Assembly (NCBI GenBank): GCA_001871075.1
Contig: MNUP01000120.1
Location: 1 to 5,893 of the forward strand
Reading direction: 5' to 3'
Length of the DNA stretch: 5,893 bases
Origin: Candidatus Desantisbacteria bacterium CG1_02_49_89
Lineage (GTDB): Bacteria; Desantisbacteria; UBA1551
A program made the translations under genes and the position numbers. This document shows, piece after piece, positions 828-5,893 of this stretch (the stretch's first letter is position 1; each line of letters starts with the position of its first letter). The notes below the pieces were generated by a model. The model was not told the DNA's origin. It saw only the letters and a program-made list of their open reading frames with translations, and did no database searches.

Positions 828-1739
828 TTAGCCATAATGCACGACTTCTAAACCTGCGTTGACTGCTATCGTTTCAAGTTCTTTTATGTATTCAACGGGC
901 TGGGGTTTGGTGCAGGAAAGAGGATAGGCGAGGTTAAGCCAGGAATACTTGCCTGCGGACGCGGGGTTGAACGGAAGCAAAGAAACTTTTATTACGCCTG
1001 TTTCCTTTATCCTGCCTGCAGTTTCTCTGACCGTCTGAAGGGAATCATTGTACCCGGGTATCAGGGGTAAACGCACTACAACGTTTGCACCTTTCTTTAT
1101 GAGCCTGGCAAGGTTCCCGAATATCAGGCTGTTGGATACGCCGGTATAAGCGCGGTGCAGCTTGTCATCAGGATGCTTTATGTCGAATAAAAACAGGTCC
1201 GTAACTTCGGCGATCTTCTCAAAAACTTTCCACTGAGCGTAACCGCTGGTTTCCACCGCTGTATGCATGCCTTTTGACCTGCACAGCTTCAAAACTTCAA
1301 CCGTAAAATCCATCTGAAAGGCAGGTTCCCCGCCCGTGATCGTTATGCCCCCGCCGGACCTTCGGAAAAAAGGAGCCAGCTTTTCTGCGTATTCTGCTAT
1401 CTCAAGCGCGGTTGTTTCCTTCCCTTTTACTTCAAGAGCGCCGTTCATGCATGCCCGGAGGCACATTCGGCGGCATTTTTTGCATTTATTCCTTAATTCA
1501 GGGTCGATCCTGCCAAAGGATATTATTTTATCCGGACAGGCTTTTGAACATTCATTGCACTTCTTGCATTTCGCGGAATACCACACAACTTCAGGCTCAG
1601 GAGAAATAGATTCCGGGCTGTGGCACCATGCGCACCTCAGCGGGCAGCCTTTAAGGTAAACGTTCATGCGCAGGCCCGGCCCGTCATGAGAAGCGGTTTC
1701 GTCAACCGCGAAAATAATGCCTTTAACCGGACCTTTCAT
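828..1739 (-). CDS. Glycyl-radical enzyme activating protein (radical SAM, PflA family)
   Basis: This 303-residue enzyme is predicted to use S-adenosylmethionine and an iron-sulfur cluster to abstract hydrogen from the glycine of the partner GRE, in the cytoplasm under anoxic conditions. The radical-SAM motif CX3CX2C is at Cys32, Cys36 and Cys39, within the typical DGPGLR...GCPLRCAWC context. A ferredoxin-like insertion follows, with Cys58/61/64/68 (CX2CX2CX3CP) and Cys86/89/93/97 (CX2CX3CX3C), predicted to hold two more [4Fe-4S] clusters. This places it with the glycerol-dehydratase-type activases rather than the short PflA of pyruvate formate-lyase. The GGEP SAM-binding motif is at 136-139. 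The start ATG overlaps the GRE stop as ATGA, so translation is probably coupled. Length and motifs look intact. Family is certain; the exact partner is inferred from adjacency. Confidence 0.95.
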   Translation of the reverse strand: MKGPVKGIIFAVDETASHDGPGLRMNVYLKGCPLRCAWCHSPESISPEPEVVWYSAKCKKCNECSKACPDKIISFGRIDPELRNKCKKCRRMCLRACMNGALEVKGKETTALEIAEYAEKLAPFFRRSGGGITITGGEPAFQMDFTVEVLKLCRSKGMHTAVETSGYAQWKVFEKIAEVTDLFLFDIKHPDDKLHRAYTGVSNSLIFGNLARLIKKGANVVVRLPLIPGYNDSLQTVRETAGRIKETGVIKVSLLPFNPASAGKYSWLNLAYPLSCTKPQPVEYIKELETIAVNAGLEVVHYG

Positions 1740-3910
1740 AAGCCCATCTCTGCCCTGGCAACAACCTCGTCCTGAGCGTCCCTGGGCAGGAGCGTGAAAG
1801 GAACAAGGTACCCTCCTATGCGTATGAGAAGGTTCTGAAAATTCTCCGGGTGCTCCTGCGCGTCCTTCAGGACATCGGTGCCGGTAATGTTTATCTGCAC
1901 CTGATAAAGCCCTTTTCGGAAAGCCGTTTCAATAACGTCCTTCATACTTTCAATGCCTTTGTCGTTTTCGAGAGAACCTGAGGAAAAACGCAGGTTAAAA
2001 ACCGTGCCTCCAAGCCCTCTTGACTGGTCGAATTCCAGGGATGAAAGCAGCATTGACAGTATGCCCTGCAGTTTCACGCCGGTGCAGGGGCCGATCGAGT
2101 TGGCAAGCGGGACGCCCGCTTTTCGCCCGTCGGGAGTGGCAGGCGTTTCCCTTCCCATCTGTATCCAGACAGTCCAGCCAAGGAACCCGGGAAAAACCGG
2201 GCCGTTCAGGAAATTCCCGGACCCTTCTATCGAAGAACACCACTTACCGGCAACTTCGGCAAAAAGATCGTTCACCCACCCAGTATTGTTGCCGTATTTC
2301 GGGCAGTCAAAAAGGACGGCTCGCTCCAGCTCGCCGCATCCCTCAAAATTGCCTTTTATCGCTGAGCGGAAATCATCAAGCGTGAAGCGGTTGTCCCCGG
2401 TAAGCGTTTTTATCGCGGCAAGGCTGTCAACCGCGTTCGAGATCCCCACAGCCTCGGGCTGGAGAAAATTGTAGGTCGCCCCGCCGTTTGATATGTCCTT
2501 CGCGTTCTTAAGGCAGTCCTGGACAAAACACGAAAGCAGGGGGAACGGCCGGTATAATGATTCGTTCTTCTGGTCATTCACGCCCTGGGAGACAGCGTTC
2601 CCTGCCAGGCGCTCGATCTGTTCCATGAAAGCTTTTTTCAGCTCTTCGTAATTCCGCGGCATTCCCGTCTTAGGGCCTTCCTGTTTGCCTGTCGCCGGAT
2701 TGCACCCGTCAAACATCGCGTGCAGAAGCGACATCGGTATATTGACGTAAGGCCAGGCAACCCAGGGGTTTGTCCTGCCCTGTATCGAAGCTTCCGTGCA
2801 GGTGCTGGGAAGGTAGTCAACAGCGTGCTCAAAAGGTATATTGTAGCGCTTCAGGCCTTTTGCTATCAGGTCAAAGTTAAAGAACGAGGGCTGGCCCATG
2901 CCGTTTTTCAGGAGCCTGAACGCGGCTTTCATGAAATCTTCGCTTATGCCTTCGTGCCACATTATGTCAATGCCCGGGTAATACATCCTGACCCTGTCAG
3001 ACGATTCGAGGCTTTTGAACGAAAGCTCGCTGGCCGCGTCTGTCCCGTCCGGGTTCCTGCCCGCGATGCCGACTATCACAGCCGACATGCTTGGCCCTAA
3101 AAACTCGTTACACTTTATGAAGAGCTGGTCTAAAAAAGCGTCAGCCTCCGCATCGTCAAGTTCCCCTGAAGCTTTTTCAGCCATGTAATAAGGCAGGAGA
3201 TACCGGTCGATATGGCCGGGATTGAAACAGGCATGGTGGTTACCGTTCTCCAGGGCCACGCCCAGGAAAACAAACCAGGAAAGCTGGACGGCTTCCCTGA
3301 AATTTCTTGCGGGCTCTGAGGATATCCGCCTGCATATGTCCCTGATCCTGCCCAGCTCCTCCTTCCAGTCCGAGTCGGTTTCTTCTTCTTCCATCTTTGC
3401 AGCGAGTTCAGCGTACCTGAGGATAAATTCCTGGAATGCCTTAATAGATATAAGGGCTGACTTATAAAAATCCTTACCCGGACCCGGACTAACCGATTTC
3501 TCAAGCCCAATGATCCGCTCTTTTATTTTATCAAGGCCTGTTCCGAGGATCGACGGATAATCAGGGGCCATGTGGCCCTCTGAAGCTGAAACCCAGTAAT
3601 TCTGCGCTCCCAGATACTTCTCAGCTTCCTGTATTTTTTTCAGGCCCGTTCCGTCATCCGGATGTGAATTAGGGTGCCAGCCTGCGAGTATCTCGCCTTT
3701 TCTTATCCTGAGGGGCATGTTCTTAAAAATATGGGCGGTGGCCTTGGCTACCCTAAGGCAGCGCGATCCTTCCCCTTCGGTCTGCCTGAAGGATTCCGCG
3801 GCAAGCACAGACCTTTCCCTGTATTCAGCGGCTTCTTTCTCCACTGAAACTTTCAGGTCCTCGCACCAGCCGCGCAGCTTCTCAGATCTTCTTGTTTTAG
3901 TTTCCAGCAT
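1736..3910 (-). CDS. Glycyl radical enzyme, PFL2/dehydratase-like, substrate unknown
   Basis: This 724-residue protein belongs to the pyruvate formate-lyase/glycerol dehydratase superfamily. The glycyl radical loop is near the C-terminus: Arg697-Ile-Gly-Gly700-Tyr, with Gly700 the predicted radical site. The thiyl-radical cysteine is Cys371 in STCTE. The CxE arrangement (Glu373) is known from dehydratases and C-N or C-S lyases, whereas pyruvate formate-lyase has CysCys without that Glu. Other family blocks are visible: GHMAPDY near 112-118, NPGHIDRYLLPYY at 230-242, NGGATYNF at 475-482, DSLAAIK at 495-501 and ATPDGRKAG at 591-599. It is somewhat shorter than the usual 780-850 residues but appears complete at both ends. 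The start is supported by AAGG five bases upstream. No microcompartment shell genes or transporters are in view, so the substrate cannot be named. Annotations of formate acetyltransferase would probably be wrong. Confidence 0.93.
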   Translation of the reverse strand: MLETKTRRSEKLRGWCEDLKVSVEKEAAEYRERSVLAAESFRQTEGEGSRCLRVAKATAHIFKNMPLRIRKGEILAGWHPNSHPDDGTGLKKIQEAEKYLGAQNYWVSASEGHMAPDYPSILGTGLDKIKERIIGLEKSVSPGPGKDFYKSALISIKAFQEFILRYAELAAKMEEEETDSDWKEELGRIRDICRRISSEPARNFREAVQLSWFVFLGVALENGNHHACFNPGHIDRYLLPYYMAEKASGELDDAEADAFLDQLFIKCNEFLGPSMSAVIVGIAGRNPDGTDAASELSFKSLESSDRVRMYYPGIDIMWHEGISEDFMKAAFRLLKNGMGQPSFFNFDLIAKGLKRYNIPFEHAVDYLPSTCTEASIQGRTNPWVAWPYVNIPMSLLHAMFDGCNPATGKQEGPKTGMPRNYEELKKAFMEQIERLAGNAVSQGVNDQKNESLYRPFPLLSCFVQDCLKNAKDISNGGATYNFLQPEAVGISNAVDSLAAIKTLTGDNRFTLDDFRSAIKGNFEGCGELERAVLFDCPKYGNNTGWVNDLFAEVAGKWCSSIEGSGNFLNGPVFPGFLGWTVWIQMGRETPATPDGRKAGVPLANSIGPCTGVKLQGILSMLLSSLEFDQSRGLGGTVFNLRFSSGSLENDKGIESMKDVIETAFRKGLYQVQINITGTDVLKDAQEHPENFQNLLIRIGGYLVPFTLLPRDAQDEVVARAEMGL

Positions 3911-3943
3911 ATATACCTTACCACGAAACCATAAAAAAATTTA

Positions 3944-3973
3944 ACCACGAATTAACACGAATTTCCACGAATT
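3944..3973. repeat. Three-copy 10-bp tandem array (NNCACGAATT)
   Basis: ACCACGAATT (3944-3953), AACACGAATT (3954-3963) and TCCACGAATT (3964-3973) follow each other with an exact 10-base period. A partial extra copy, ACCACGAA, lies at 3920-3927, next to the GRE ribosome binding site. The array is 33-63 bases upstream of the GRE start on the minus strand. From general recollection, similar 'AATTCGTG' runs occur as dispersed intergenic repeats in environmental genomes, so this may be a repeat family rather than a dedicated operator. Confidence 0.8.
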
Positions 3974-4012
3974 TTAACCTTTAGGCCATTAATCCGTTTA
4001 TCAAATATAAAC

Positions 4013-4040
4013 TCATGACACATGACTCATGACGCGTGAC
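4013..4040. repeat. Four-copy 7-bp tandem array (NCRTGAC)
   Basis: The units TCATGAC (4013-4019), ACATGAC (4020-4026), TCATGAC (4027-4033) and GCGTGAC (4034-4040) form a perfect-period heptamer array ending five bases from the purB stop codon. Heptamer tandem repeats of this general kind are known as STRR elements in filamentous cyanobacteria; whether this one is related is unknown. Confidence 0.85.
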
Positions 4041-4045
4041 TGTAT

Positions 4046-5353: not shown

Positions 5354-5381
5354 AATTTCAAATTTCAAATTGTAAATTGCA
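5354..5381. repeat. Left heptamer array flanking the four-helix gene
   Basis: Four 7-base units: AATTTCA (5354-5360), AATTTCA (5361-5367), AATTGTA (5368-5374) and AATTGCA (5375-5381). The stretch AAATTGTAAATTGCAAA at 5367-5383 is the exact reverse complement of 5816-5832, on the far side of the four-helix gene. The array lies between that gene and purB, ending five bases from the purB ribosome binding site. Confidence 0.85.
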
Positions 5382-5420
5382 AAATGTCCCAAAGGGATTC
5401 CTTCGGAACAAAAGTAAAGG

Positions 5421-5783
5421 TCATTTTATATTACTCTTCGCGGTCAATACTGCTTTAGCAAATATCCTGCTTAATTCCTTTGCTTCTTCTAATAGTTTCT
5501 CTATTTCAGAACCTGGTATAAGTTCAGCTCGAATTATCAGTTTCAACCAATAATTTGATTCCTTCAGTTCCTTTAACACCAATTGCATCTTGTGTATGAA
5601 ATCTGCCCTACTCTCAGCCCCGCAGGCTTCTTCGTAATTTGCACCTGCTGAAGTAGCAGCTCTAATCAATTGATTATATACATATCCTGCAACTATGGCC
5701 TTTCTGGCTTTTGTTATAACTCTAATAATTTCTGCTGCATAATTGAGCAATCGCTGCGCCAAAGCATCGGCTTCACTCTGCAT
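5421..5783 (-). CDS. Four-helix-bundle protein, 23S rRNA intervening-sequence (S23) family
   Basis: This 120-residue all-helical protein has roughly four amphipathic helices at 5-26, 28-55, 58-86 and 92-117. Family features are Ser45-Ala-Gly-Ala-Asn49-Tyr50-Glu-Glu-Ala, Ser58-Arg-Ala-Asp61-Phe62-Ile and KELKES followed by Tyr78-Trp79-Leu80. Members were first found inside intervening sequences of 23S rRNA genes (Leptospira, Coxiella), but many lie elsewhere, as here; their biochemical role is not established. The related Avd protein of diversity-generating retroelements is an alternative, but no reverse transcriptase or template repeat is seen, and the window ends 110 bases upstream. A GAAAGG site lies about six bases before the ATG. 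It is flanked by inverted heptamer arrays, which hints at a cassette. Lower GC than the neighbouring genes fits acquisition by transfer. Confidence 0.88.
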   Translation of the reverse strand: MQSEADALAQRLLNYAAEIIRVITKARKAIVAGYVYNQLIRAATSAGANYEEACGAESRADFIHKMQLVLKELKESNYWLKLIIRAELIPGSEIEKLLEEAKELSRIFAKAVLTAKSNIK

Positions 5784-5812
5784 ATTATACCTTTCAATGT
5801 GGTCTTATCTTT

Positions 5813-5840
5813 CAATTTGCAATTTACAATTTACAATTTG
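5813..5840. repeat. Right heptamer array flanking the four-helix gene
   Basis: Four 7-base units with only the last base varying: CAATTTG (5813-5819), CAATTTA (5820-5826), CAATTTA (5827-5833), CAATTTG (5834-5840). It holds the inverted partner (5816-5832) of 5367-5383. It lies about 30 bases upstream of the four-helix start, so it could overlap that gene's promoter. Confidence 0.87.
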
Positions 5841-5893
5841 ACTTTTGCAAAACAGCTTTTTGTTAAATATCTATATTTTCTCTGTTCTCTCAA

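Follow-up and report, generated by a model that had tools for sequence, protein, structure and literature searches.

Genes for 23S rRNA intervening sequence proteins between inverted heptamer arrays outside rRNA: a likely small mobile element

Proteins of the S23 family have been known for decades as riders in the intervening sequences (IVSs) of 23S rRNA, with a solved structure and no function. IVP is used here as the name for members of PF05635/TIGR02436, the '23S rRNA intervening sequence protein'. The 23S IVS of Coxiella carries tandem GACAGAT heptamers before the S23p ORF, in a number that varies between strains, and has 28-bp inverted termini and an involvement of RNase III (PMC4990558). 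PF05635 has been described as resembling, or being homologous to, Avd (PMC10053308), and 18 IVP genes were reported in cas loci (PMC3936711). The IVP relatives Xcc0516 and DGR Avd form pentamers. Dispersed intergenic heptamers of about four units, known as short tandemly repeated repetitive (STRR) heptamers or G-rich heptamer repeats, have been described from Xanthomonas (GGGAATC) and from cyanobacteria such as Nostoc (GGGGATT) (PMC4692102) and from Beggiatoaceae (TAACTGA; PMC4679880). RAYTs are HUH (Y1) transposases, REPs are palindromes of 20-40 nt, and each RAYT lineage is matched to its own REP repeat. Beyond the Coxiella IVS paper, no link between IVP and heptamer repeats was found in the open-access literature that we searched (subscription papers were outside the scope).

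The window analysed here is a stretch of 5,893 nucleotides from Candidatus Desantisbacteria bacterium CG1_02_49_89 (GCA_001871075.1) and forms the start of contig C6 (MNUP01000120.1) in an assembly of 2.48 Mb and 150 contigs. Throughout the window genes are encoded on the minus strand, namely a glycyl-radical enzyme, its activase, purB and a gene of 120 aa (5421-5783). In profile searches the latter matched PF05635 at 62.7 bits (cut-off 33.8), with nearly the whole protein covered, and TIGR02436 at 80.2 bits (cut-off 24); PF05635 was its only Pfam match. The gene is enclosed by two heptamer arrays with the unit CAATTTR. On the minus strand, the left array (5354-5383; TRF period 7, 4.3 copies, 86% matches) reads CATTTTG/CAATTTA/CAATTTG/AAATTTG. 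The right array (5813-5839, plus strand; TRF period 7, 3.9 copies, 95% matches) reads CAATTTG-CAATTTA-CAATTTA-CAATTT and is thus inverted relative to the left one. The gaps between gene and arrays measure 38 bp on the left and 29 bp on the right. Positions 5367-5383 (AAATTGTAAATTGCAAA) and 5816-5832 (TTTGCAATTTACAATTT) are exact reverse complements, as found by repeat search and by direct reading, and the repeat search also returned longer inverted arms of 29 nt at 5358-5386 and 5813-5841 with 90% complementarity. When array contexts were compared, the outer tail of the right array (GACTTTTGCAA, 5840-5850, plus strand) turned out to be the most frequent outer end among CAATTTR arrays of this genome, and the palindromic insert adjoining the left array (TCCCAAAGGGATTCCTTCGGAA, 5387-5408) closely resembles inserts beside gene-less arrays at C35:5803 and C26:6491.

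One of the arrays lies directly before the ribosome-binding site of purB. At its end the window runs into a scaffold gap of 12 N, within contig C6 5864-5935, with the same 30 bp (TAAATATCTATATTTTCTCTGTTCTCTCAA) on both sides; this repeat likely represents overlapping contig ends, and the gap probably arose during assembly. Just past it, at contig positions 5933-5966, lies a third array, a directly oriented copy of the right one, and beyond the gap follows a gene which we take to be of the IMP-dehydrogenase type (IMPDH; from reading the sequence, not from a profile search). The IVP gene hence sits between purB and an IMPDH-type gene, outside rRNA, and no Rfam match was found in the 3.4-kb window locus. 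A first-pass annotation made from the sequence alone had claimed an S23-like gene between inverted heptamer arrays, a perfect 17-bp inverted repeat, and a location outside rRNA between ordinary genes. All of these claims held, and the S23-family assignment was supported by both profiles and by a four-helix model (see below). It had left undecided whether the unit is a mobile cassette or a transcript folded into one large stem-loop. Folding of the minus-strand RNA, which it had proposed, gave a terminal stem of about 25 bp that closes the unit (z = -3.3; none of 100 shuffles was as stable). The stem is therefore present in the RNA, but it is not an alternative to the cassette, because inverted arrays necessarily yield it.

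Some further features of the window were recorded. A second heptamer array (4011-4041; CATGACA-CATGACT-CATGACG-CGTGACT) lies between purB and the glycyl-radical enzyme gene and fits GTCATGA, the heptamer of L005, which is a further IVP gene in this genome. Close to these heptamers, at 3941-3974, is a short tandem repeat of a different kind, a period-10 array of the type CACGAATTTC / TTAACACGAA. Positions 481-780, which separate the activase gene from the start of the contig, hold dense GC-rich palindromic repeats (CCCCGATGNNNCATCGGGG, GCGGGC...) that appear to be another dispersed repeat family. The PFL-like glycyl-radical enzyme and its radical-SAM activase (828-3910) reached no specific equivalog.

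The AlphaFold2 model of the window IVP (pLDDT 92.4) shows a bundle of four helices at residues 4-25, 30-54, 59-85 and 91-117. It compared best with S23-family structures (2rld, Z 17.7; Xcc0516, 2gsc, Z 16.5). Against DGR Avd in its free and RNP forms (4dwl, 8ub7) Z was 13.6-13.7, and since unrelated helical bundles score 12-13.5, the Avd value of 13.7 is just above that background. No recombinase or nuclease motif was found in the IVP. The protein is under purifying selection: when related IVP genes outside rRNA were compared in pairs, dN/dS was almost always 0.07-0.23, and the lone exception (0.40) is a pair with merely five differences. The protein therefore matters at these loci, unlike the decaying copy of Coxiella.

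None of the nine further IVP loci of this genome (G000) has the window heptamer CAATTTR, and one could suspect that only the window's gene has arrays. This was rejected, since a search for any inverted flank found other heptamers at most of the other loci, namely CGTGTAA (L007), GCTCATA (L006), CGTCGTA (L003), AGTGATC (L002), GTCATGA (L005) and, at the decayed IVP copy L011, GTTAAAG. L009, at a contig end, shows GTGTCAG on its sole visible side, and nothing clear was seen in the flanks of L008. IVP genes with arrays of their own were seen in other genomes as well. We collected 80 relatives with organism names (Nitrospinota, Omnitrophota, Chloroflexota, Bacteroidota, Planctomycetota, Methanophagales and others), and the full comparison drew on 113 IVP loci spread over many phyla of bacteria and archaea. 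The control consisted of all other ORFs of these loci that reach 100 aa or more. Inverted flanks were present at 88 of the 113 IVP loci (78%) vs 6 of 268 other ORFs (2.2%; Fisher p 3e-55), and period-7 flanks at 134 of 226 IVP sides (59%) vs 25 of 536 (4.7%; p 7e-61). Likewise, period-7 arrays occurred in 57% of the 220-bp IVP flanks vs 2% of other stretches of these loci. The enrichment was limited to period 7 and its multiple 14, with the other periods between 4 and 13 at or near background. The left and right flanks of a locus matched in inverted orientation in 76% and in direct orientation in 7%, and inverted matches to the flank of another locus were seen in 14%. As the loci are related by descent and not independent, these p-values overstate the case, and it is the effect size that counts. 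A typical array has 4-5 units; the median distance to the gene is 22 nt upstream of the start codon and 14 nt downstream of the stop codon. IVP genes in general thus sit between inverted period-7 arrays, and chance co-occurrence is rejected by the controls for period, orientation and other ORFs. About a fifth of the IVP loci had no detectable inverted flanks (e.g. L008, and the phage locus L229, which had no arrays), and units of 8 instead of 7 nt were found at L004 and L044 (GTCTGGGA, CAATGAAC). A different arrangement of the family was observed in genome G009 (contigs C2, C3, C7, C12 and C13), with about 19 short IVP-like ORFs, many of them in divergent plus/minus pairs a few hundred bases apart.

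The heptamer is a property of the IVP lineage and not of the genome, and its orientation is fixed relative to the gene. This was shown by comparison of 87 loci with clear arrays, in which the similarity of heptamers on the same strand rose from 0.43 to 0.73 as protein identity rose from below 20% to above 80%, whereas similarity to the opposite strand stayed flat at 0.41-0.49. The Mantel correlation was 0.53, with none of 1000 permutations as high (permutation maximum 0.24), and remained unchanged once GC differences were removed. In the subfamily of IVPs similar to that of the window, units of the (A/T)(A/T/G)TGCAA type occur in bacteria and archaea alike.

Arrays are not restricted to IVP genes. 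Our sample of G000 comprised 540 kb in 40 stretches, of which the second 20 contigs were partly selected for arrays, so that only the first 20 contigs (221 kb) are unbiased. CAATTTR arrays without the gene occur at many places in this genome, with 12 merged arrays in the unselected 221 kb. These contigs contain 55 period-7 arrays altogether, and most of them are closest to the heptamers of G000's own IVP genes. A scan of the 540 kb for three units with up to 2 mismatches returned 22, 16, 15, 6, 6, 1 and 0 arrays for the heptamers of the genome's own IVPs. Among 19 heptamers of foreign IVPs, 18 gave no array and one gave a single match. For three heptamer families of G000 (AATTATG, AGCTCAA and GATGCAC) no IVP partner was found. 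A reversed-pattern control of CAATTTR was as frequent in G000 as the real pattern; it was rejected as a background rate, since its matches are the TTTAACC family of the decayed IVP gene L011. Three successive CAATTTN units matched 91 times in G000 vs once in its IVP-less sister G001. Across genomes, IVP-rich ones had 12.9 period-7 arrays per 100 kb vs 0.64 in IVP-negative ones (p 0.004); this comparison is dominated by three genomes, and the sampled stretches of the other IVP-rich ones held few arrays or none. IVP-bearing genomes thus contain dispersed arrays and array-ended derivatives that lack the gene. The first-pass annotation had stated that its idea would fall if arrays occurred equally often without the gene. 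Taken literally this is the case, as there are far more arrays than copies of the gene, yet the idea is not refuted, because non-autonomous copies look like gene-less derivatives that share the ends and because the G000 arrays carry the heptamers of its own IVP genes. It had likewise named the presence of the same gene in all relatives without arrays, which was not seen, as G001, the only same-order genome compared, has neither the gene nor arrays.

Evidence for mobility comes from multicopy cassettes and from filled and empty sites. Genome G054 contains four cassette copies that are 97-99% alike at four places, with a gene 59% identical to that of the window. Arrays, inverted as they are in the window, form the ends of the shared unit, and about 35 gene-less copies have the same ends with a spacer of about 60 bp in place of the gene, some of them in tandem clusters. 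In cyanobacteria, an IVP unit with CGCAATT ends lies inside a DNA cytosine methyltransferase gene on three plasmids, and the gene is intact on three others; filled and empty sequences cease to match 4-6 bp beyond the arrays, and the unit takes the place of about 430 bp of the gene. Two cyanobacterial plasmids carry a unit between cas1 and cas2, with the end of cas1 replaced, and in two others these genes abut. Within a single strain, Nostoc sp. C052, a unit with CGTAATT ends is present in pC052_A and absent from pC052_D, which is 95% identical; the unit has 36-bp inverted termini whose ends form the junctions, and it replaces about 205 bp. These pairs show that the unit is present at some orthologous sites and absent from others, and that the differing stretch stops at the arrays or no more than about 6 bp from them; in the three pairs 60-430 bp of target are replaced. 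Neither a target-site duplication nor arrays were found at the three empty sites. Replacement of the target is unlike a classical transposon and could possibly include later deletion. These filled and empty sites of the same architecture, together with the four near-identical cassettes of G054, support the mobile-cassette reading that the annotation had offered. It had also suggested looking for an empty site at purB, and here the result was less clear. In G001, the only genome of the same order that was compared, a glycosyltransferase-like gene lies between purB and the IMPDH-type gene, with neither IVP nor arrays at this locus, so that no clean empty site exists for the window's own locus. 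An orthologue of this glycosyltransferase-like gene was not found in G000 (only matches of 26-31%).

With respect to the enzyme that moves the unit, no RVT_1 match was found in G054 (99% complete, with recent copies), G017 or G040, and G000 has a single partial match on another contig. As RVT_1 is absent from three IVP-rich genomes, a reverse transcriptase partner is not a general requirement. All four genomes checked have HUH Y1 transposases, and therefore a trans-acting enzyme remains possible. Two observations concern the surroundings of such units. The tandem gene-less clusters of G054 (e.g. L317, L318 and L061) have a period of about 201 bp or of 187 bp, and their joints, which read AAGACGTTAAGCGC / AAGACGTTAAGC, resemble GTTRRRY cassette junctions; it is conceivable that they are integron cassettes, although only the joints are alike and an attC structure is not established. 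IVP units also lie between cas2 and cas1 in Nostoc TCL26-01 (L224, 1489-1845) and between drmD and an MmeI-type gene in Planktothrix (L226, 2980-3339), and defence operons may be frequent landing places.

We consider it likely (probability about 0.76) that the arrangement of array, IVP gene and inverted array is a small mobile element and one of a large class; recognition of the array and the chemistry of transfer are inferred. An IVP oligomer would bind its own heptamer array, probably as a folded RNA stem or as single-stranded DNA, for which there are no binding data. The 4-5 units per array would suit one unit per subunit of a pentamer, although only a monomer was predicted for the window IVP. 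Binding may protect array-ended units or present them for recombination into new sites. The recombination itself, in which target DNA is replaced, would be carried out by as yet unidentified enzymes of the host or acting in trans. Units with and without the gene would both spread, by analogy to REPs with RAYT proteins, and the IVSs of 23S rRNA would be a special case in which such an element has settled in rRNA and RNase III cleaves this stem. A bolder reading, for which belief and doubt are evenly balanced, is that IVP and arrays form a mobile-element class of their own, without transposase or reverse transcriptase, in which each lineage recognises a private heptamer and arrays are both the ends and the non-autonomous progeny; the heptamers of cyanobacteria, xanthomonads and many uncultured phyla and the 23S IVSs would all be its products. 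If the mobile-element reading were right, the function of IVP and the origin of intergenic heptamer repeats would become one testable question. A tiny Avd-like protein without a recognised catalytic domain would then drive or enable the spread of cassettes in bacteria and archaea, reaching CRISPR operons, restriction/DISARM operons and rRNA. The pairing of protein and heptamer would moreover be a natural, readable recognition code, with dozens of lineages whose cognate 7-mers can be read from genomes.

Other explanations have to be weighed against the mobile element. The arrays might be simple-sequence repeats formed by slippage, into which IVP genes insert or between which they are captured. 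The large excess of arrays over IVP genes and the families AATTATG and AGCTCAA without an IVP partner speak for such a target preference. We nevertheless regard it as very unlikely, since empty sites lack arrays, the two arrays are inverted and not direct, and the heptamer tracks the protein lineage strand-specifically across genomes and domains; furthermore, foreign heptamers are missing from G000 (none for 18 of 19) and such arrays from G001 (one CAATTTN match). A role in regulation has somewhat more in its favour but remains unlikely. Here the arrays would be sites through which IVP controls many mRNAs, its own flanks would be autoregulatory and spread would be incidental. This would agree with arrays in intergenic leaders, such as the one in front of purB, with a conserved protein related to the RNA-handling Avd, and with the regulatory role proposed for the TAACTGA heptamers of Beggiatoaceae (PMC4679880). 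However, the inverted symmetry of both flanks, the insertions in methyltransferase and cas operons and the multicopy cassettes favour an element, and up to ten different heptamer-IVP pairs per genome would be odd for a host regulon.

Two further alternatives assign the central role to RNA, and both appear very improbable. In an RNA-only selfish element the stem alone would matter, with excision by RNase III as in 23S rRNA, and the protein would be expendable. The terminal stem in the RNA and the S23p of Coxiella, which has deletions and is apparently unexpressed (PMC4990558), are consistent with this. It does not hold in general because of the purifying selection found in nearly all pairs outside rRNA (dN/dS 0.07-0.23), and the heptamers co-vary with the protein sequence; it could hold for single decayed copies. 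In the case of retro-mobility, an Avd-like IVP would hand the stem RNA to a reverse transcriptase acting in trans, and the cDNA would replace the target. The Avd-like fold (4dwl and 8ub7, Z 13.6-13.7), the homology of PF05635 and Avd (PMC10053308) and the replacement of the target instead of a clean insertion would fit, but G054, G017 and G040 have no RVT_1 match and G000 only the partial one, and a Z of 13.7 is near the background of helical bundles.

Compared with the described systems, the mobile element proposed here shares with the 23S rRNA IVSs of Salmonella, Leptospira and Coxiella the protein family, the complementary, stem-forming ends and a size of about 430-500 bp. It differs in that the window unit is not in rRNA but between protein genes and has its own heptamer, which is dispersed in the genome, and in that the array architecture is general at non-rRNA loci. 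The arrays of the window's genome resemble heptameric STRRs in being tandem 7-nt repeats, mostly of about four units, dispersed and intergenic; the STRR reports (PMC4692102, PMC4679880) mention no S23 or four-helix gene, whereas here the heptamers belong to IVP genes. The likeness to DGR Avd rests on the four-helix bundle (Z 13.7 to Avd chains, near the helical-bundle background), and no reverse transcriptase, template repeat or variable repeat was found near the window gene. Inverted termini and gene-less derivatives are reminiscent of MITEs and of insertion sequences with TIRs; here, however, the termini are heptamer arrays, there is no transposase gene inside, and the target is replaced with no duplication seen. 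Like RAYT/REP, the unit has a gene with short inverted repeats on either side, the repeats are also scattered between genes, and each protein lineage goes with a repeat of its own. It differs in that IVP lacks a transposase fold and its repeats are tandem heptamers, and no Y1 (HUH) transposase was found between the inverted repeats of the window, where the enclosed gene matches PF05635 alone in Pfam. The window gene is therefore filed as a member of PF05635 and neither as a 23S IVS, for which it is in the wrong place, nor as DGR or RAYT/REP. By analogy, the system among these that the window unit would most resemble in the way it works is RAYT/REP.
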